DNA of 33,395 bases from a virus: positions 1 to 33,395 of IMG/VR virus record IMGVR_UViG_3300021378_000089; one strand, 5' to 3'. The notes beneath the pieces were generated by a model. That model worked only from the letters and a program-made list of their open reading frames with translations. It searched no databases and had not been told where the DNA came from. The translations under genes and the position numbers were made by a program. Positions 7,546 through 21,214 of this stretch are shown piece after piece. Every line of letters starts with the position of its first letter. Positions within the stretch are counted from its first letter, which is position 1.

Positions 7546-10500
7546 TTAATCAGTCCTAATACCCTTATGCTCAAAGCTTCGATAAAATAATGCCTGAGCT
7601 AGATAACTTCCCCCAATGCCCGCTTTCGGACCTTGTAAATCAAACATCACTGGGATGTTAACTGCTTGTCCTGCTGTATTACCAATCTCATCAGGACCTA
7701 CCTTAACTGTACCTGCGATAAAGCTCGCTGTTAACAAGTCTGCTCCACCAACGTTAAGTCTATTTGTTAAGTACGCTTTAATTGCTCTCTGTGTAGGAAT
7801 AATGTTGTTTGAATCTGCAATAAACAACGGATCTGTTGAGAACTCTCTAATAACTGTACCAGTACCACCAACTCTAATTCCACCTAGTGCAAGTTCTGTA
7901 AGACCTGCTAAGTCAAAGAAGTCAGCACTAATAGTAACAATACCTGTAGACTGTTCAACAGCAAACAATTCACCAACCCTAAAGTTACCTGATTGGTCTG
8001 TACTTGAGTAGAATACTCTACCACCATTTATTTCTTGTACCTCATTTTCTGGATAAGAAATATAATTTTGTGTATACAATCCTGGATAGTTAGTCTGTGT
8101 AAAGTTACCTGTACCAATATCTAGGAAGTCGTGGTTTGAAATTCTACATTGTGAATATCTAGTGTTAATTGTTACGCTATTACCATGATTTGTTGTTGGA
8201 TCGTCCTCAATTTTAAGTTCAGGACTTACTCTAAATCTTAGAGTAAAGGTTCCACCAGTATCAACACTTTCTTGCTCAATAACAACAACAGTGTAAAGTT
8301 CTGGGTTACCAGTAAGTCTTAACTGCGCACCTGGGCCAATAACAACTGGCATTCCAGAAACTGTAATAAACTTACCTACAGGAGTAATATCTGCAAAACC
8401 ATCACCTGTTACAGTAACAGTAGTTGTACTTGTTTTATATGCAGTACCTCTGTTAGTCCAACTTGGTTGTGCTAATACACCGTCTGCAAATCTTGTCATA
8501 TCAAGTTCAAGTTCACCTGTGTTGTTAGGATCAATAACTGTGTACCCAACTGGAGTATTAACAATATCATAACCTGAACCTGGATCCCAAAGTTTTACAA
8601 CTCCGATCGATCCAGCAGTTACATCTGCTCTACCTTTAATTGTAGCACCTGTGTAAACAACTTTGTGAGTAAATTTAACATCACGGTCTAATACTACCCA
8701 TCTACCTTTTCTATTATCTAAACCATCTGTAGCATCTGCATCTGGATTACCAAATACACATCTGTTCCAGTTTCCAATTTGTCCAATGTCTCTCTCGGTC
8801 CAATGTATTCCGTCTGGTGATGTGTAAATGTATTGTACCGGTCCTGTTGTTGCATCTCCTGAAATAGTTCTACCTGCTGTATCGTAAAGTGCCATAAACA
8901 CACCTTGACCATATTTTAGATCGTTCCATTGTAATATTGTTGAACCATCTATTAATGGCATAGTTGCCGGATACCAAGTTTCTCCATCGAATGAATAACC
9001 AATATCGCCAGTGTCTGACATAGCAACAAATCTATTATTACCAAATGCAACACGGTTCCAATCTTTTTGCGTACTGTCTGCAACAACGTCCATGATATAA
9101 GTTGCCCAAGTAATAGTTGTACCGTTCCATGTTCCTATTGCTGCTAAGTTATTACTATTTGCAATTGCAACAAATTTTCCTGCACCATAAGTTACACTCA
9201 CCCATTCGTTAATAGTTGAGTCGCCTGCTGCTGGAAAGTTAGCTGCTGACCAAGTTGCGCCGCCGTTGGTTGATATCGCTGCATTGTTTCCTGCACTTGA
9301 AACTGCAACAAATACGTTTGCTTCTACTTCATCATATATTGGATTACCGTATGCAACATCTGTCCAATTAGTATTTGCTGGTAAACTAAATGCAGTCCAT
9401 ACGCTACCATTTGAACTATATGCACCTACTGCTGCAGAATCTTTAATTGCAACAAACTTTCCGTTACCTGCTGCAACTGATTTCCATACACCTGCGGATG
9501 GTAAGTTTGCCGTTGCCCATGTTGTTCCGTTAAGAGAGTAGTTAACAGTTGTACCTGTGTTTGCAACTGCTACAAATCTACCACTTTCTGCAAATCCTGT
9601 ATATTCAAATGTAACAATGCTGTTTGTACTATCGTCAGTTACACTATGTACTGAGATTGTAATATTGTTATCACTGCCTGCACCTAAGCTACTACCTAAA
9701 ATTACAAGACTGTCGCCTATTGCGTATCCAGCACCACCTTGTCTTAATGTAACTGTGTAGTCTTTGCCAAGTTTTACAATATCAAATGTTGGGTTAGAAG
9801 CCGGTACTCCGATTGTTGATCCTGTTCCTGTACCTGTTGCACTAACAGATGTATATACAGCTGATGTTTCACCGTAAGCTACATCACCCCATGTTGTACC
9901 AGAATCAAGTGTTGATACTGCATGTGAAAAAGGAGGTGCATCAAACACAACTCTTGGTTCGAACCTATAAGATGTACCTGTTAATAATTGTTCTAAAATT
10001 GGTTTACCTGGAACTACATGATCCCAACCTGGTGTAGCAGTAGACTCCTTGTAAACTGTTACAACTTTTGAAGTACTGTTATAAGCATGTACATAACCAT
10101 ACTGTCCTGTACCAGGTCCTGATGTTAAAATAATTCTTAAACCTAACAAGTTTGCTTCTTCATTTTCATCGTTAGTAGCAATAGTAATAGTAGTTGTATC
10201 ACCAGTTTGAGCGTTGTTACCAATAAGTGTAAATCCGCCTCCACCTGCTGCTGCTGACGCTTGACCTGTAACAATCCTTGCTTCAAACATAGCATCATCT
10301 CTAGTTTCTTCTTGAAGTACTGCTGCGTTTGCACCTGAACCAACAAATGTATAATCTGCTGATGTATAATTTTGTCCACAGTTTTTAAATTCTAATGCAA
10401 GAATCTCATCATTTACTTCTCCAGCAAATGCTGACACAACCTGTGCTTCTTCTTGTCTGTTATTAATTGTAGCAGTAATTGGTGTTTCAGTTGGGTCTGT

Positions 10501-13134
10501 ACCGTCTGCTAACGCACCAATGTAACCATATGAACAGTTACCATTAGTAGCACGTATAATACCACCATTTTCTGCTAGGTATCCTACCTGTGCATAATAT
10601 GTAAACACTGATACAAGTTCTGCTCTACCATTGTTAAGAACGTGAGCACCAATACCATCACTAATTACCTGTGTAAAATCGTTGGACACGATTGATTTGT
10701 TACCGCCTGCGTGTAATGATCCATCAATTTTTTGTCCTGTACAATTGCTACCAAATGTAGATACACCTTGTATATATGGAGAACGTGTTGTAATCCAAAC
10801 TTTAGTATCTGCTGTACCCCAACCTGGATCAAGCGAAACATAATTAGGACCAGTTGGTCTTTGATATTGTTCAAAAACGTTTGGTGGATTAAGTGTACCT
10901 GTTAAACCGTCAAGTGTACATTGTCTAACTCCACAGGCATCTCTAACATAAAACATATCTGTTGACGAACTTCCAACTACCATGCTGTTGTAGAACTTAC
11001 CTTCTTTTAAAATTCTATAGTTTCCTTCATACTGTAAATCGTATGCAAGTGCATTACAAATTCTATGCATATCGTCATTATAAATTGCACTATCGTATGC
11101 ATAATCACTAAATGTATTATCAAGATATGATGTTGCTTCTTTCATTAAGAAGTCTTTATTTGCAATAATCATTCTTGCTGCATTTAATCTATTTGTTTGA
11201 GTTGTAATTGCATTTGTACCAGTAACAACAGGATCAGTTCCTGTACTTTGTACATGGAAATTAATATACTGATTATAATCTGCTAGTCCGTTGTCAACTA
11301 AGTTTGCTGCAACTGAATCTGAAGTAACTTGCACGTAGTTAATAATTTCTAGTCCATCGCCTGTTGGAGGTCCTGGATTAAATGTTCCTGTCTTAATAGC
11401 ATCTGTAATTACTGTAACATCAGCAGTATTTCCTGATTGTTTTGTAAACGATGTTCCTTCTAAAATGTGTCTAATAACACCTTGTAAGTGTGTTGATACA
11501 GCAATTCTGTATACAGCATCACTTGCCATAGAAGCAATTGCACCTCTTGGTTTAATTTTAGATGATCTAATTTCATCACCAAGCACAACTGTTTTAGCAG
11601 GCAAACTGATTGGAAGTATTTCTTCGTACAAGCCTGTTGTTAATTGTATTGTGTTATGTGCGTCTACACCGTCGTCAGCTATTTCTGCTGCGTATCTAAC
11701 TGTCTTAACTGGTTTGAAAGGATCAATACCTGCGTTGGCGTTTGCTCTATCATCTACACCAATAATTGGATCAACGTAAATGTACCTTGCACTTTTACCC
11801 CAGTTATCATATTCTAAAGTATCAGTTGGACCAACTTGTAAAAGTTTCTCAGCAGTTCCTAGTGGAACGTTAGTAGCACCTAATGTAGATCCGTCACCAG
11901 CAATAGTTCTGCTTAATCCAAATGTTAATAAATCACCCGGGTTAACAAGTCCAACATTATCTGCACCTTGAAGTAAAAGATCCCAATAATTAAATCCACT
12001 ACCGTTATCTCCTGGGAAGTTTTCATCACTTGCTGTATGTTCTATGTTTGCTTTATATGCACTACCTCTGTAAGTAATTACATCGCCTACTGCGTATACT
12101 GTTGCAGTAGTCCAAGAATTTTTCCACGCTTGTCCGTTAACAATAAGTTCCCAGTTACCTGCATCAAGATAGTCTAATGAACTTCCGTCATCAGCACTGT
12201 TTAATGTTGCAACATAAATTGATCCGCCTCTTTCAACAACATCACCTGTTTTATATTGTGTTGCCTTTGCCCATGTACCTGCAAGATTAATACCTTTTGA
12301 AATAACTGCCCAATCAACCTCACCCGGTTGGTAAATTGAATCACCTGGGTTACGTGCATAATTGTTTGTTTGTGACTGGTAAACATATCCGCCGTGTTGT
12401 ACAACATCGCCAATTGCATAGTATGTTGAGCCTGACCACTGACCTTGAATTTTACGTCCTGGTACTTCTAAAACAAAGTTTGAAGAAGTAATATTAGTTG
12501 TTGATGTATGTCCTGTTAAAACTCTTAAAAGCGATCCACCATACTTAACAAGGTCCTGCGCTCTGTATCTAGTAGCGTCAGTATATGAACCTTTAAACGT
12601 TTTACCGTAGTAATAAGTTGTCCATTTAAATTGATCGTCTTCTAAACCTAATGCTGTAGTTGCTGCTGAAGTATGTGCAGTAGAACATTTGTAAACAATA
12701 CCACCGTAGTTAACAACATCGCCTACACCGTATGTCGTTGCAACTGCCCAATCGCTACCCCAGTCTGCTCCTGGAACATAAACTGCCCAATTAGCAATGT
12801 CTGTATTAAAATCTGCTGATGATGTGTGTCCTGTTGCAACAAGCCAAAGAGTACCACCGTCATCTACAATGTCTCCGTTATAGTAAGTCGTTGCGGCTGC
12901 CCAAGCACCTCTAAATGCTCTACCATCGGACATCTTCTTCCATGCCGGTTGTGCAATAGTGTCGCCAACTGGTATGTAATCCACATCTGCTTTAAAGTTT
13001 GCTGATGTGTGTCCTCTAAGCGCAATATATACACTGCCTCCGTACTGTACAACATCATCAATGATGTATGCAGTTGCAGTTGTCCATGGACCTTTCCATG
13101 TATATCTAATTCGACTTATCTTAAACTCTGCCAT
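7546..13134 (-). CDS. Giant tail-fibre/adhesin-like protein (1862 aa), complete paralogue
   Basis: Complete gene with AGGAG before the ATG, 10 bp after the 121-aa gene. Residues about 10-385 carry seven CBM5_12-like repeats (such as GDVVQYGGSVYIALRGHTS). A linker (GDLLTFG...) leads to a beta-helix-like section from about residue 450 (YIYVDPIIGVDD, then TIQLTTGLYEEILPISLP). One YNDDMHRICNALAYDLQYEG segment near residue 680 corresponds to the four copies in the neighbouring paralogue. Residues about 1170-1460 are BNR/propeller-like repeats containing GNNRFVAMSDTGDIGYSFDG. The C-terminal 200 residues (HDFLDIGTGNF, GNFRVGELFAVEQSTG) are shared with the paralogue. The order suggests a distal fibre or adhesin with glycan-binding N-terminal modules. 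No catalytic site was recognised. Confidence 0.88.
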   Translation of the reverse strand: MAEFKISRIRYTWKGPWTTATAYIIDDVVQYGGSVYIALRGHTSANFKADVDYIPVGDTIAQPAWKKMSDGRAFRGAWAAATTYYNGDIVDDGGTLWLVATGHTSSADFNTDIANWAVYVPGADWGSDWAVATTYGVGDVVNYGGIVYKCSTAHTSAATTALGLEDDQFKWTTYYYGKTFKGSYTDATRYRAQDLVKYGGSLLRVLTGHTSTTNITSSNFVLEVPGRKIQGQWSGSTYYAIGDVVQHGGYVYQSQTNNYARNPGDSIYQPGEVDWAVISKGINLAGTWAKATQYKTGDVVERGGSIYVATLNSADDGSSLDYLDAGNWELIVNGQAWKNSWTTATVYAVGDVITYRGSAYKANIEHTASDENFPGDNGSGFNYWDLLLQGADNVGLVNPGDLLTFGLSRTIAGDGSTLGATNVPLGTAEKLLQVGPTDTLEYDNWGKSARYIYVDPIIGVDDRANANAGIDPFKPVKTVRYAAEIADDGVDAHNTIQLTTGLYEEILPISLPAKTVVLGDEIRSSKIKPRGAIASMASDAVYRIAVSTHLQGVIRHILEGTSFTKQSGNTADVTVITDAIKTGTFNPGPPTGDGLEIINYVQVTSDSVAANLVDNGLADYNQYINFHVQSTGTDPVVTGTNAITTQTNRLNAARMIIANKDFLMKEATSYLDNTFSDYAYDSAIYNDDMHRICNALAYDLQYEGNYRILKEGKFYNSMVVGSSSTDMFYVRDACGVRQCTLDGLTGTLNPPNVFEQYQRPTGPNYVSLDPGWGTADTKVWITTRSPYIQGVSTFGSNCTGQKIDGSLHAGGNKSIVSNDFTQVISDGIGAHVLNNGRAELVSVFTYYAQVGYLAENGGIIRATNGNCSYGYIGALADGTDPTETPITATINNRQEEAQVVSAFAGEVNDEILALEFKNCGQNYTSADYTFVGSGANAAVLQEETRDDAMFEARIVTGQASAAAGGGGFTLIGNNAQTGDTTTITIATNDENEEANLLGLRIILTSGPGTGQYGYVHAYNSTSKVVTVYKESTATPGWDHVVPGKPILEQLLTGTSYRFEPRVVFDAPPFSHAVSTLDSGTTWGDVAYGETSAVYTSVSATGTGTGSTIGVPASNPTFDIVKLGKDYTVTLRQGGAGYAIGDSLVILGSSLGAGSDNNITISVHSVTDDSTNSIVTFEYTGFAESGRFVAVANTGTTVNYSLNGTTWATANLPSAGVWKSVAAGNGKFVAIKDSAAVGAYSSNGSVWTAFSLPANTNWTDVAYGNPIYDEVEANVFVAVSSAGNNAAISTNGGATWSAANFPAAGDSTINEWVSVTYGAGKFVAIANSNNLAAIGTWNGTTITWATYIMDVVADSTQKDWNRVAFGNNRFVAMSDTGDIGYSFDGETWYPATMPLIDGSTILQWNDLKYGQGVFMALYDTAGRTISGDATTGPVQYIYTSPDGIHWTERDIGQIGNWNRCVFGNPDADATDGLDNRKGRWVVLDRDVKFTHKVVYTGATIKGRADVTAGSIGVVKLWDPGSGYDIVNTPVGYTVIDPNNTGELELDMTRFADGVLAQPSWTNRGTAYKTSTTTVTVTGDGFADITPVGKFITVSGMPVVIGPGAQLRLTGNPELYTVVVIEQESVDTGGTFTLRFRVSPELKIEDDPTTNHGNSVTINTRYSQCRISNHDFLDIGTGNFTQTNYPGLYTQNYISYPENEVQEINGGRVFYSSTDQSGNFRVGELFAVEQSTGIVTISADFFDLAGLTELALGGIRVGGTGTVIREFSTDPLFIADSNNIIPTQRAIKAYLTNRLNVGGADLLTASFIAGTVKVGPDEIGNTAGQAVNIPVMFDLQGPKAGIGGSYLAQALFYRSFEHKGIRTD

Positions 13135-18334: not shown

Positions 18335-18784
18335 TTAAGCGTCTTCAGTGAAGTCATCATCATCTGTACCAGATAATGTGTTGTCATCACCAGCTTCTTC
18401 AACTTGTGCTGCGCCATCTGAAGTAGATGTTGCAAAGTTCCAAGGAACAGTCAAACCGTCATATGCGTTTGAACCTGTTGCAGATGGTGCTGATAGTGTT
18501 GCTTTCTTTCCAGCAATTTTACTTACTAGATAAGTTTCACTGTCGTCCATGTTAAATGAAATTGACATTTCACCTGCTGTTAATGCTGCTGGCAATTTAC
18601 CAGTTGTTAGTACACAAGTAAATTCACCTGCTGTTTCAATTTCTTCACAGACAAATTTCTTTGAACCTTTTTGCTTTACGATATAACCTTCTTTAACTGC
18701 TGAGCCGTTATGAAAGTTGACTTTGATTTCTGATCCAGCCGCTGTTGGCTCACCAAACAATCTTTTATTAAGTGGTCTTCCCAT
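18335..18784 (-). CDS. Virion-module protein with MGRPLNKR start and acidic tail (149 aa)
   Basis: A 149-residue protein whose N-terminus MGRPLNKRLFG is a recurrent start in structural-region proteins of oceanic T4-like phages. The middle is beta-rich (VKEGYIVKQKGSKKFVCEEI) and the last 25 residues are strongly acidic (EEAGDDNTLSGTDDDDFTED). AGGAGAAAAC lies at the right distance before the ATG. It appears to be the first gene of the fibre transcription unit, downstream of a 104-bp leader with hairpins and a late-promoter-like box. Function unknown. The acidic tail could mediate protein contacts during assembly. Confidence 0.75.
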   Translation of the reverse strand: MGRPLNKRLFGEPTAAGSEIKVNFHNGSAVKEGYIVKQKGSKKFVCEEIETAGEFTCVLTTGKLPAALTAGEMSISFNMDDSETYLVSKIAGKKATLSAPSATGSNAYDGLTVPWNFATSTSDGAAQVEEAGDDNTLSGTDDDDFTEDA

Positions 18785-18888
18785 TTGTTTTCTCCTATAA
18801 TAGTAGTCCTATGCGAGTTCTAGTCGCTACGCTGTGGGTAAACAGCATAAGTCCGCCACACTATGCGGCACACTTTAGACACAAGTAT
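18785..18888 (-). other. Leader with hairpins before the fibre operon
   Basis: A gap of 104 bp without an ORF. On the minus strand it contains GCUGU-UUACCC-ACAGC and CCGC...GCGG pairings upstream of the Shine-Dalgarno AGGAG of the 149-aa gene. It is consistent with a structured 5' leader of the transcript starting near 18880. Confidence 0.35.
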
Positions 18889-18893
18889 TTATC
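18886..18893 (-). promoter_or_regulatory. Candidate T4-type late promoter (GATAAATA)
   Basis: Minus-strand GATAAATA matches the T4 late box TATAAATA at 7 of 8 positions. It overlaps the stop of the 89-aa gene and precedes the first gene of the fibre unit by about 100 bp. Confidence 0.45.
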
Positions 18894-19158
18894 TTCTGCT
18901 AAGAATAGATAAGAGTTCTTGTTGTCCAACAGTTTTAAGGAGAATGTTAATATTGTCGATTTCTGCTTGGGCACGTTCTAAATGTATAGTACGTTTTGTC
19001 TGCCTGTGCATAATCATGTGCTGACTATGATTATCAATGAGCTTTTCTAGCGATTTGGATAATTGACGAACATCGTGTTTGAACATAGAATGATTCTTGT
19101 TCCACTTGCTTACCTGTTCTCTTAGTAAAGAGAAGTCTTTTTCGTCTTTTATCTCCAT
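18889..19158 (-). CDS. Small predicted coiled-coil protein (89 aa), possible leaderless mRNA
   Basis: An 89-residue, highly charged alpha-helical protein (KDEKDFSLLREQVSKWNKN near the N-terminus, LERAQAEIDNINILLKTVGQ near the C-terminus). Heptad-like hydrophobic spacing suggests a coiled coil. It has no family I recognise. The ATG at 19158 has no Shine-Dalgarno. Instead a good sigma70-type promoter (TTGACT, 17 bp, TATAAT) ends 6 bp upstream, which would put +1 on the A of the ATG. The next in-frame ATG is codon 25 and also lacks a ribosome site. Unlike the flanking late genes it is probably expressed by host RNA polymerase without late factors. The role could be early takeover or regulation, which is only a guess. 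Confidence 0.65.
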   Translation of the reverse strand: MEIKDEKDFSLLREQVSKWNKNHSMFKHDVRQLSKSLEKLIDNHSQHMIMHRQTKRTIHLERAQAEIDNINILLKTVGQQELLSILSRR

Positions 19159-19164
19159 GCTAGT

Positions 19165-19193
19165 ATTATATAGTATTTTGGACAGTTAGTCAA
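19165..19193 (-). promoter_or_regulatory. Sigma70-type promoter TTGACT-17-TATAAT
   Basis: On the minus strand the -35 is TTGACT (19193-19188) and the -10 is TATAAT (19170-19165), with a 17-bp spacer. Predicted +1 is at 19158, the first base of the 89-aa gene. One mismatch from the full consensus. Confidence 0.65.
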
Positions 19194-19194
19194 G

Positions 19195-19221
19195 AAAAAA
19201 GGACCAATTAAGGTCCTTTTT
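19195..19221 (-). terminator. Intrinsic terminator of the candidate RNA (nearly bidirectional)
   Basis: A 10-bp perfect stem AAAAAGGACC/GGTCCTTTTT with a 6-nt loop. On the minus strand it ends in six U. On the plus strand it ends in five U, so it could act both ways. It ends the 19195-19440 transcript and insulates the promoter of the 89-aa gene. Confidence 0.8.
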
Positions 19222-19440
19222 AATATAAGCAAAATAGGTAGGACTTGGTTACACCTACAAGCACGTACACAGAATACCATTCTATTACGCACAACCTAGT
19301 TCCGCTCGGTAGAGCAATGTGATCCTCAGTCTCTCAACCTTGAACCTGGGTACCACCCCTAACTAGTCAAGTTCGACCCTTCTGGTAAAGGCCTCTTCCT
19401 TGCACTATAAACAAAAGTCAATTACTCTTTTGTTGCTATA
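19195..19440 (-). ncRNA. Candidate structured non-coding RNA (about 245 nt)
   Basis: No credible ORF lies here. The stretch has a TTGACA/TATATT promoter just upstream and a strong terminator at its end. Minus-strand RNA folds: a 5' hairpin AACAAAAG/CUUUUGUU (about 19409-19435), a CUAGUU/AACUAG closing helix around smaller hairpins including GCUC-UACC-GAGC, and a long hairpin at 19261-19292. That last one pairs GUGCGUA-AUAGAAU with AUUCUGU-G-UACGUGC around a GGU loop. Its three imperfect pairs are G-U wobbles on this strand but A-C mismatches on the other, which supports minus-strand transcription. I do not recognise an Rfam family. A tRNA was considered and rejected. Confidence 0.55.
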
Positions 19441-19445
19441 TTATT

Positions 19446-19473
19446 AATATAACACAAAATAAGTATTTGTCAA
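19446..19473 (-). promoter_or_regulatory. Sigma70-type promoter TTGACA-16-TATATT
   Basis: Minus-strand perfect -35 TTGACA (19473-19468), 16-bp spacer and -10 TATATT (19451-19446). Predicted start is near 19439, at the 5' end of the candidate structured RNA. Confidence 0.55.
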
Positions 19474-19494
19474 CCTATTTCATTTTGGACAAAA

Positions 19495-19689
19495 CTATAT
19501 GTTATTACTTGAAGTAACAGATATATGTTTTAGTACTTTGCCAGTATTTTCGCCACTTTTTACAGTATATCCACTAGTACCACTGCCATTAATGTTTGGC
19601 TCAGAACGTGACATCATTAAGATGCGTTCCTTACGAGCTTTCATTTTTGCCTCGCGGTATGTTTTGTGTAAATGATCGAATCTGTTCAT
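19495..19689 (-). CDS. Small basic protein controlled by a glutamine riboswitch (64 aa)
   Basis: The best start is ATG 19689, preceded by AAGGAGGG. An in-frame ATG at 19728 lies inside the conserved riboswitch core and is not a credible start. The product has a basic helical N-terminal half (YREAKMKARKERILMMSRSE) and a polar second half (SGYTVKSGENTGKVLKHI). There is no membrane segment. Genes behind glutamine riboswitches of the Downstream-peptide class often encode such short proteins. In cyanobacteria one of them (PirA) acts on nitrogen control through PII. Whether this protein is related to PirA cannot be decided by eye. A role in adjusting host nitrogen metabolism is inferred from the riboswitch alone. 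Confidence 0.75.
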   Translation of the reverse strand: MNRFDHLHKTYREAKMKARKERILMMSRSEPNINGSGTSGYTVKSGENTGKVLKHISVTSSNNI

Positions 19690-19710
19690 AACACCCTCCT
19701 TTTTAAAGTT

Positions 19711-19761
19711 AGGTGCGTTCCTTCGCATAATGCTACTTCCGTCCCGATTGGGATGAACGAT
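19711..19761 (-). promoter_or_regulatory. Glutamine riboswitch (glnA / Downstream-peptide class)
   Basis: On the minus strand the order is CGUUCAUCC, a UCCC-AAUC-GGGA hairpin, GACGGAAGUAG, a GCA-UUA-UGC hairpin, then CGAAGGAACGC. These are the conserved blocks and order of the glutamine aptamer family as I know it, and P1 is CGUUC/GAACG. GCACC at the aptamer's 3' edge (19716-19712) can pair with GGUGU (19695-19691) next to the start codon. This would mask part of the AGGAGGG site and compete with the end of P1, giving a plausible translational switch. Confidence 0.85.
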
Positions 19762-19774: not shown

Positions 19775-19777
19775 CAT

Positions 19778-19802
19778 AAAAAAAGAGGAATAAATCCTCT
19801 TT
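19778..19802 (-). terminator. Intrinsic terminator after pqqA-like gene
   Basis: Minus-strand AAAGAGGA-UUUAU-UCCUCUUU stem (8 bp, 5-nt loop) running into a U tract. It starts 17 bp after the pqqA stop codon and separates it from the riboswitch unit. Confidence 0.8.
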
Positions 19803-19818
19803 CTTTAAGCAACACTTA

Positions 19819-19893
19819 TTATCTGTTTGCTACATACATGGTTACTTCAAATCCAAAACGCATTTCTGTTGCTTGAGGTTTAGTCCATTTCAT
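19819..19893 (-). CDS. pqqA: PqqA-like PQQ precursor peptide (24 aa)
   Basis: A 24-codon gene, the usual PqqA length, with AGGAG at good spacing before ATG 19893. It begins MKWTKP, like bacterial PqqA (W.KP near the N-terminus), and its second half RFGFEVTMYVANR matches the core R.GFEVTMY...R. Glu16 and Tyr20, the pair that the radical SAM enzyme PqqE crosslinks to build the PQQ skeleton, are both present in E-VTM-Y. In bacteria PqqD carries PqqA to PqqE, and peptidases and PqqB/PqqC complete the cofactor. No pqqB-E gene is in this window, so the peptide would have to use host enzymes, or mimic their substrate and titrate them. It has its own promoter-like box, palindrome and terminators on both sides, so it is a monocistronic cassette after gp23. 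Confidence 0.88.
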   Translation of the reverse strand: MKWTKPQATEMRFGFEVTMYVANR

Positions 19894-19911
19894 AATAATC
19901 TCCTAATAATA

Positions 19912-19926
19912 TGTGCAACTTGCACA
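19912..19926. promoter_or_regulatory. Perfect 15-bp palindrome in the pqqA leader (operator or hairpin)
   Basis: TGTGCAA-C-TTGCACA, a perfect 7-bp inverted repeat around one base, 19 bp before the pqqA start. If transcription begins from the box at 19931, it covers about +1 to +14, where a repressor site or a 5' hairpin (UGUGC/GCACA) would act. Confidence 0.5.
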
Positions 19927-19930
19927 CTAT

Positions 19931-19938
19931 TATTTAAA
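19931..19938 (-). promoter_or_regulatory. Candidate T4-type late promoter of pqqA (TTTAAATA)
   Basis: Minus-strand octamer matching TATAAATA at 7 of 8 positions, in the gap between the gp23 terminator and pqqA. It predicts a leader of about 32 nt. Confidence 0.45.
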
Positions 19939-19983
19939 CATGTTACAAAGTAAAAGTCATGCAGATAATCATTAAAAGGCCAT

Positions 19984-20015
19984 AAAAAAAGGGCGATATA
20001 AAAATACCGCCCTTT
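19984..20015 (-). terminator. Intrinsic terminator of the head operon (after gp23)
   Basis: A 12-bp stem AAAGGGCGGUAU/AUAUCGCCCUUU with a UUUU loop and a seven-U tail on the minus strand. The only imperfect pair is a G-U wobble on this strand and an A-C mismatch on the other, which fixes the orientation. A second hairpin UAGAUUU/AAAUCUA (20018-20034) precedes it after the gp23 stop. Confidence 0.88.
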
Positions 20016-20041: not shown

Positions 20042-21214
20042 TTACGCAAATCTTAGGTTTGCAGATGTTACTGCAACTTTGCCTAAGTAGTCAGCCGCAT
20101 TACCAAGAGATGATGCAGTGTTTGTTAACTCTACATAACCATATCTTGTCATGAAACTAACAACTGGCTCAAATGTACCTGGATCAAGTACAACACCGCT
20201 TGACATTAAAGGAATGTATGGGCAGTAGAACGCAGCAGCGTCTGATTCCGAAGAACCTTTGTAACCGATCAACACATCGTCGTCAGTTGCATAACCGTTT
20301 ACGTACACACGCATTGCACTGTTTAAAGTTCCTACAAACTTAGTGTTTGTTGGTGCTTCAAAAGTACCTTCAGTTGTTCTTGCGAACGCTGAAGTTGTAG
20401 CAGATTGTAACAAAGTTAATACTGTTGGTGAAACAACAGCCCAGTTACCTGCGCCACGTCTTGTACGCTGTGCAATCAAGTTAGCAACTCTGTTGATTTG
20501 AACAGCTAAAGCAGCATGTTCGTCACCAACGAAAGTAGCAGTACCTGATACTGCACCTTGGTCATAAGTTAAAGCAGCCGTACCAGCAAGTGTTTTCAAA
20601 GATTGAATAACTTCTTGGTCAATTTCAGCTGTAATTTCTTGTGCTAAAGCAGCCATTACTTCTGCTTCGATGTCAATGCCCTGTTGAGCTTGTGCATCTT
20701 GAGCAGCTTCAAACGTCCAACGAGCACTCAACTTACGAGTTTTCGCTTCAACAGTTTGTTTCAAGATTTGAATGCTTAGTCTGTTTCCAGCTACACCTTC
20801 TAAAGCTGCTGTAGAAGCTGCTTTATCATTAGTAGCACCAGAATAACCTTCTGCGATCTTGAAAGGTGATAGTGCTTCGTCACCTGCTGTAGTGTCAGTT
20901 CCACTTGCAGAGTTGAATGCATCAGCATAACGTACTCTTAATGTGTGGATTTGACCAACAGGTCCAGTCATTGGCTGTACACCAACCAATTCGTTTGCGA
21001 TGACAGTTGGCATCACACGTCTGATCACTGGAAGGATCACACGGTTTAGTGTTGCAACGTTACCGGCAGAAGTAGCACCTGCAGTGGCAGACTCGTTCAA
21101 ATACGTGCGGGTATTCTCTAGAGTTGTTGCCATAACAGTACGCTTGTTACCTTGAAGTCCTTCTAAAAGGGCATCTTTGGTTTCTGACCAGCGACTTTCT
21201 AGTAGTTGTGACAT
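20042..21214 (-). CDS. 23: Major capsid protein gp23
   Basis: T4-type major head protein, recognised by its N-terminal half (ATLNRVILPVIRRVMPTVIA, then ELVGVQPMTGPVGQI and LRVRYAD) and central LSARWTFEAAQDAQAQQGID. T4 gp23 is 521 aa and this is 390, so it lacks much of the insertion domain, as in distant marine relatives. A gp21-type cleavage site (L/I-x-E) is seen at LNE after residue 41, followed by SATAGA, which would leave a mature chain of about 349 residues. The C-terminus (VVSFMTRYGYVELTN) is typical. It is the last gene of the gp20-gp23 operon, 11 bp after gp22, and is followed by a strong terminator, which fits high expression. Confidence 0.96.
   Translation of the reverse strand: MSQLLESRWSETKDALLEGLQGNKRTVMATTLENTRTYLNESATAGATSAGNVATLNRVILPVIRRVMPTVIANELVGVQPMTGPVGQIHTLRVRYADAFNSASGTDTTAGDEALSPFKIAEGYSGATNDKAASTAALEGVAGNRLSIQILKQTVEAKTRKLSARWTFEAAQDAQAQQGIDIEAEVMAALAQEITAEIDQEVIQSLKTLAGTAALTYDQGAVSGTATFVGDEHAALAVQINRVANLIAQRTRRGAGNWAVVSPTVLTLLQSATTSAFARTTEGTFEAPTNTKFVGTLNSAMRVYVNGYATDDDVLIGYKGSSESDAAAFYCPYIPLMSSGVVLDPGTFEPVVSFMTRYGYVELTNTASSLGNAADYLGKVAVTSANLRFA

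Follow-up and report, generated by a model that had tools for sequence, protein, structure and literature searches.

A phage-borne pqqA microcassette beside a T4-type capsid gene and its probable role in methanol oxidation during infection

PqqA is the consumed substrate of PQQ synthesis, one peptide being spent per PQQ, whereas PqqB–PqqE are catalysts that are re-used. A 33,395-bp virus record (IMG/VR IMGVR_UViG_3300021378_000089; a fragment, analyzed over its whole length and referred to here as the window) carries a candidate gene for this peptide next to a capsid gene. Is this tiny ORF a genuine pqqA, does it belong to the phage, and what would a phage gain from a single consumable piece of a host pathway?

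Identity and anatomy of the cassette

The ORF lies on the minus strand (19819–19893) and encodes the 24-codon PQQ precursor peptide MKWTKPQATEMRFGFEVTMYVANR, followed by a TAA stop codon. The initial annotation had read it as pqqA on inspection, and the coordinates proved exact. Both PqqA profiles matched the peptide far above their cut-offs: PF08042 gave 43.8 bits (E = 2.3e-11, cut-off 21.1 bits), and the TIGR02107 equivalog model gave 41.5 bits (E = 8e-11, cut-off 20). This ORF was also the sole PF08042 match within the 33-kb record (E = 6.9e-12). No PHROGs family matched the peptide. Glu16 and Tyr20, the expected PqqE crosslink pair (Glu-x3-Tyr), are retained. The Shine–Dalgarno sequence, earlier described as good, is AGGAG at 19900–19904 (minus strand), 6 nt ahead of the ATG. 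A chance ORF was ruled out by the profile scores, together with the complete pqqA ORFs at 150 of the 153 viral loci retrieved by pattern (see below).

The peptide resembles the Methylophilaceae type of the PqqA family in its length, W-x2-P leader, ATEMRFGFEVTMY core, and Glu/Tyr pair. The host gene is often an orphan, located apart from pqqBCDE; likewise, tblastn detected no pqqB–E in the window, such neighbors being common but not defining for pqqA. The window copy differs from the host type in that it is phage-encoded, stands without further pqq genes in the examined phage DNA, and has a T4-late-like promoter element in the place of a host promoter.

The window contains the phage genes for the gp20 portal, a gp21-type protease, gp23, and a baseplate hub protein, with the gp20, gp21, and gp23 homologues in the order of a T4-type phage. 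The gp23-type major capsid protein (20042–21214, minus strand; PF07068, E = 1e-100) is the neighbor of the cassette; its gene ends at 20042, 148 bp upstream of pqqA, which bears out the reported position beside the capsid gene. This gp23 is closest to those of giant T4-like phages (Sinorhizobium phage Phosso, 73% identity; Vibrio phage 2.275.O, 72%) and not to that of Melnitz, the known T4-like methylophage. Host contamination was ruled out, as phage structural genes surround pqqA and the sampled viral loci contain no pqqB–E. The location in true viral DNA that is expected of an auxiliary metabolic gene was thus found, both here and in nine Methylophilales phage records with pqqA. A tail-region protein of 1862 aa (7546–13134, minus strand) contains four CBM_5_12 carbohydrate-binding modules.

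On the minus strand, the gp23 end is followed by an intrinsic-terminator-like hairpin (19981–20015, z = -3.5), which would part pqqA from the capsid transcript. Then come an upstream box, AATGATTATCTGCATG (19958–19973), a T4-late-promoter-like element, TTTAAATAATA (19928–19938), a small 5'-leader hairpin (19913–19925, core GTGCAAGTTGCAC), AGGAG, pqqA, and a second intrinsic-terminator-like hairpin (19778–19802, z = -4.6), all on the same strand. The putative promoter contains HTAAATA, the core of T4-type late promoters. This motif is rarer than chance in the window (11 found vs 31.6 expected), and several of the remaining sites, that of pqqA included, sit just 5' of genes or RNAs. The putative promoter element TTTAAATAATA is unchanged before pqqA in L102, L122, and L370, despite the different genome positions there. 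The box occurs in a similar form ahead of pqqA in the same three relatives, and none of its type was found upstream of the other HTAAATA sites of the window. This arrangement suggests that pqqA is transcribed as a short unit of its own, and the promoter motif points to late transcription. Co-transcription with the capsid gene is unlikely because of the two terminators.

The promoter-like element, the ORF, and the terminator together form a 206-bp cassette (19775–19980, minus strand), with the direct repeat CTTTTTTTATG, the tail of a terminator, at both ends. A natural empty site exists in L291, which lacks exactly these 206 bp. Its gp23 protein is 99% identical to that of the window, and the DNA is 97.7% identical up to the gp23 terminator and 95.3% identical from the next promoter-like site on. 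Either the window phage gained the cassette or L291 lost it. More broadly, pqqA is accessory in the lineage, because only 3 of the 14 longer gp23 relatives carry it, in two cases far from gp23. It is missing from the other 11 and from 20 of 30 long MCP relatives; these counts cover relatives regardless of host, and most of the records may be incomplete.

Three structured RNAs follow in a row downstream of pqqA (18782–19761, minus strand), each succeeded by a small ORF: a glutamine riboswitch (19712–19761), a manA RNA (19228–19432), and a freshwater-2 RNA (18782–18870), all on the minus strand. The order of the elements in this RNA-rich island behind gp23 is permuted in relatives. No tRNA or tmRNA was found in the window beside pqqA, where Melnitz has them; a DNA match to Melnitz SsrA was rejected as tmRNA, since it coincides with the glutamine riboswitch.

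Occurrence in phages and in the host family

With the peptide as query, tblastn recovered nine Methylophilales records with pqqA from a collection of 50,697 phage records: Venkman, four Melnitz variants, MEP301, MEP401, MEP402, and P19250A. These represent about five unrelated lineages, and all nine of the Methylophilales phage records found carry the gene, where "all" refers to records found (MEP431–434, HIM624-A, and Venkman EXVC038S are in the taxonomy but were not found in the collection). The uncultured Venkman-like ctXG6705 in the same collection carries it as well. The copies in Melnitz, Venkman, MEP301, MEP401, and P19250A are homologous to that of the window but lie at unrelated genome places. 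In every isolate genome inspected, the gene was without a pqqA annotation, in line with the earlier remark that gene callers easily miss it. Melnitz gene 152 (L002, 3967–4062), a "hypothetical protein", is antisense to the real pqqA. Acinetobacter-type and Methylobacterium-type PqqA queries returned no further phage from the 50,697 records; none of the many Pseudomonas, Acinetobacter, and Klebsiella phages in the collection matched, nor did the SAR11 phage Mosig, whose group is sister to Melnitz (PMC9004378). The sole remaining matches, labeled "Acinetobacter phage MD-2021a" (CAKLQF020000010.1, L009), were discarded, the record being a bacterial contig with ppk and a complete pqqABCDE.

Environmental viruses were covered by scanning IMG/VR with two independent degenerate DNA patterns, GFEVTMY and ATEMRFG; the resulting counts are lower bounds from a motif-biased and non-random sample. 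Among the matches listed were 153 distinct loci, and 150 of these have a complete 23–24-codon pqqA ORF; the other three (L131, L134, and L158) are not pqqA. By protein sharing, the loci group with Venkman/ctXG6705, Melnitz, P19250A, MEP301, MEP401, the window, or none of them. Acquisitions were gauged by clustering the flanking genes. This yielded 12 clusters under single linkage (any common neighbor) and 38 when sharing on both sides was required. The DNA fetched for the 153 loci contained no pqqB, pqqC, pqqD, or pqqE, whereas 16 host loci retrieved in the same way, the positive control, did contain them. No xoxF was present in the 1.3 Mb from the viral loci.

For the hosts, the ATEMRFG pattern was scanned over 84,980 bacterial and archaeal genomes. 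Among the matches listed, true PqqA occurred only on records labeled Methylophilaceae or with a broader, compatible label. This strengthens the initial guess of a methylotroph host, and the peptide type makes a Methylophilaceae methylotroph the most likely host of the window phage. The host pathway is near-universal in this family: pqqA was present in 120/120 genomes sampled (median 4 copies, range 1–12), and pqqE in 39 of 41, as a single copy in 37. The complete 1.3-Mb Methylophilaceae genome LSUCC0665 (G001) has three pqqA genes, each more than 100 kb from pqqE. The literature reports 3–12 pqqA genes vs one pqqBCDE in Methylophilaceae (PMC4109929), higher expression of an orphan pqqA as PQQ synthesis increases in a PQQ-producing methylotroph (PMC9851590), and xoxF, a PQQ enzyme gene, ranking first among the transcripts of an OM43 strain (PMC5120137). 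Tandem pqqA pairs about 200 bp apart, with differing peptides, were seen in Methylophilaceae (L187, L191, L280, and G001:C1:875061–875316). One bacterial genome contig (L275) has a pqqA-like ORF with GLDLTMY, where Asp stands in place of Glu; this copy is decayed or altered.

Selection and proposed function

Glu and Tyr are present in 126/126 phage copies of the set retrieved by ATEMRFG, a pattern that covers neither residue, so the crosslink pair named at the outset is kept in relatives. The substitutions also revealed the selection on the peptide that had been anticipated. It is purifying, with a pN/pS of 0.14 for the core (set retrieved by ATEMRFG alone) and 0.34 for the leader (set retrieved by GFEVTMY). 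By these ratios, constraint is tighter on the crosslinked core than on the leader, the pattern that a working substrate should show. A Methylophilaceae-type peptide with pN/pS of 0.14–0.34 is a host-type gene selected in phages, the second property expected of an auxiliary metabolic gene. Expression signals were present in many copies: 157 of 166 have a Shine–Dalgarno sequence, and 77 of 166 have a terminator within 130 nt, vs 6 of 166 after shuffling.

We consider it likely that a host-derived, selected pqqA replaces the consumed substrate of PqqD/PqqE and that PQQ for XoxF methanol dehydrogenase lasts through infection. Host PqqD would present the phage peptide to host PqqE, which would link Glu16 with Tyr20, leaving host proteases, PqqB, and PqqC to complete PQQ. 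If the phage shuts off or degrades host DNA, PqqA would be exhausted first, because one peptide is used per PQQ while the enzymes are re-used. The phage would bring the consumable piece alone, from its own compact transcription unit, and PQQ would stay available for XoxF methanol dehydrogenase, the entry point of the host for energy and carbon. A small unit with pqqA alone would be the cheapest way to sustain PQQ and methanol oxidation, and the host family, which relies on methanol dehydrogenase, already multiplies pqqA alone. Unless the phage shuts off host transcription, one more pqqA over several host copies may bring little gain. A parallel is psbA, carried by cyanophages, which encodes the D1 protein with its fast turnover. 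Phage pqqA would similarly copy the first host component to be depleted and would sustain energy metabolism, but psbA encodes a protein subunit, whereas pqqA encodes a peptide substrate, one of which is consumed per cofactor. We infer the processing by host PqqDE and the benefit via PQQ and XoxF; phage pqqA probably keeps methanol oxidation going during infection.

The initial annotation had left it open whether the phage supplies the peptide or titrates it. Supply is favored and titration disfavored because the reactive residues are kept. As a decoy, the phage peptide would occupy PqqD/PqqE, lower PQQ synthesis, and slow the host; excess expression would be expected in that case, and the peptide does have the parts that PqqD/PqqE recognize. 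Such a decoy should lose or alter Glu/Tyr, but both are retained in all 126 copies; the tighter constraint on the core and the near identity of the phage peptides to those of the host also speak against it, and we judge it highly improbable. A role outside PQQ synthesis, in which the peptide, its PqqE-crosslinked form, or the RNA acts as a regulator or as a lysis or virion factor, would suit the surroundings of pqqA, which abound in structured RNAs and include hairpins. The constraint, however, acts at the codon level on the peptide and is strongest in the PqqE core, and the flanks vary between lineages while the peptide is constant, which leaves this role very unlikely.

The gene could also be a passenger: a very small host gene, easily captured by recombination and carried without benefit. 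With 1–12 copies per host, pqqA is a common recombination target, three phage copies are identical in DNA to a host copy, and the gene is accessory among relatives of the window. Carriage without benefit is unlikely nonetheless, in view of the purifying selection and the intact ORF, Shine–Dalgarno sequence, and terminator. The gene also occurs repeatedly in separate genomic settings, and it was found in all Methylophilales phage records recovered, whereas no phage from another PQQ-using host gave a match. Supply of the precursor is the preferred reading.

Earlier reports and wider meaning

The initial annotation had allowed for an earlier notice of phage pqqA, and such reports exist. In the Lake Baikal virus population VP_266, pqqA occurs alongside a virus-encoded methanol dehydrogenase (PMC7678222), and pqqA is among the viral phosphorus-cycle genes listed by a survey of reservoirs (PMC13188868). 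As proposed here, the phage-borne pqqA of VP_266 was suggested to support the methanol dehydrogenase of a methylotroph. VP_266 is one metagenomic population with its own methanol dehydrogenase gene, whereas the gene described here stands alone, is spread over many lineages (every cultured Methylophilales phage found among them), and forms a cassette that can be dissected. The papers on Melnitz, MEP301, MEP401/402, and Venkman do not mention pqqA. Phage carriage of pqqA is already known; its breadth across cultured phages, the separate settings, and the cassette appear to be unreported in the open papers searched.

A wider reading, to which we give about even chances, is that pqqA is a near-hallmark of Methylophilaceae phages, repeatedly acquired, and in the window lineage a cleanly inserting microcassette. 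Gene callers overlook ORFs of this length, which would explain why the gene had escaped notice, and it would have been acquired repeatedly because PQQ precursor supply is a metabolic bottleneck of the infected methylotroph.

OM43 and "Ca. Methylopumilus" are abundant methanol-using methylotrophs of surface waters. Were carriage of the PQQ substrate peptide the rule among their phages, methanol oxidation in infected cells would be set directly by phages, and the supply of PqqA would be a bottleneck testable in phage–host pairs that are already cultured. Tiny consumable peptide substrates would form a class of auxiliary genes that standard annotation misses, and the ATEMRFGFEVTMY motif could mark the host of uncultured viruses. 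Two of the viral loci (L033 and L036) are clear phages, with TerL and portal genes, that carry PqqA of another type, MKWETPSFEDLRFGFEVTMYINASN and MKWSKPTYQKLRLGFEVTMYFKQV; judging from this type, their hosts may lie outside Methylophilaceae.
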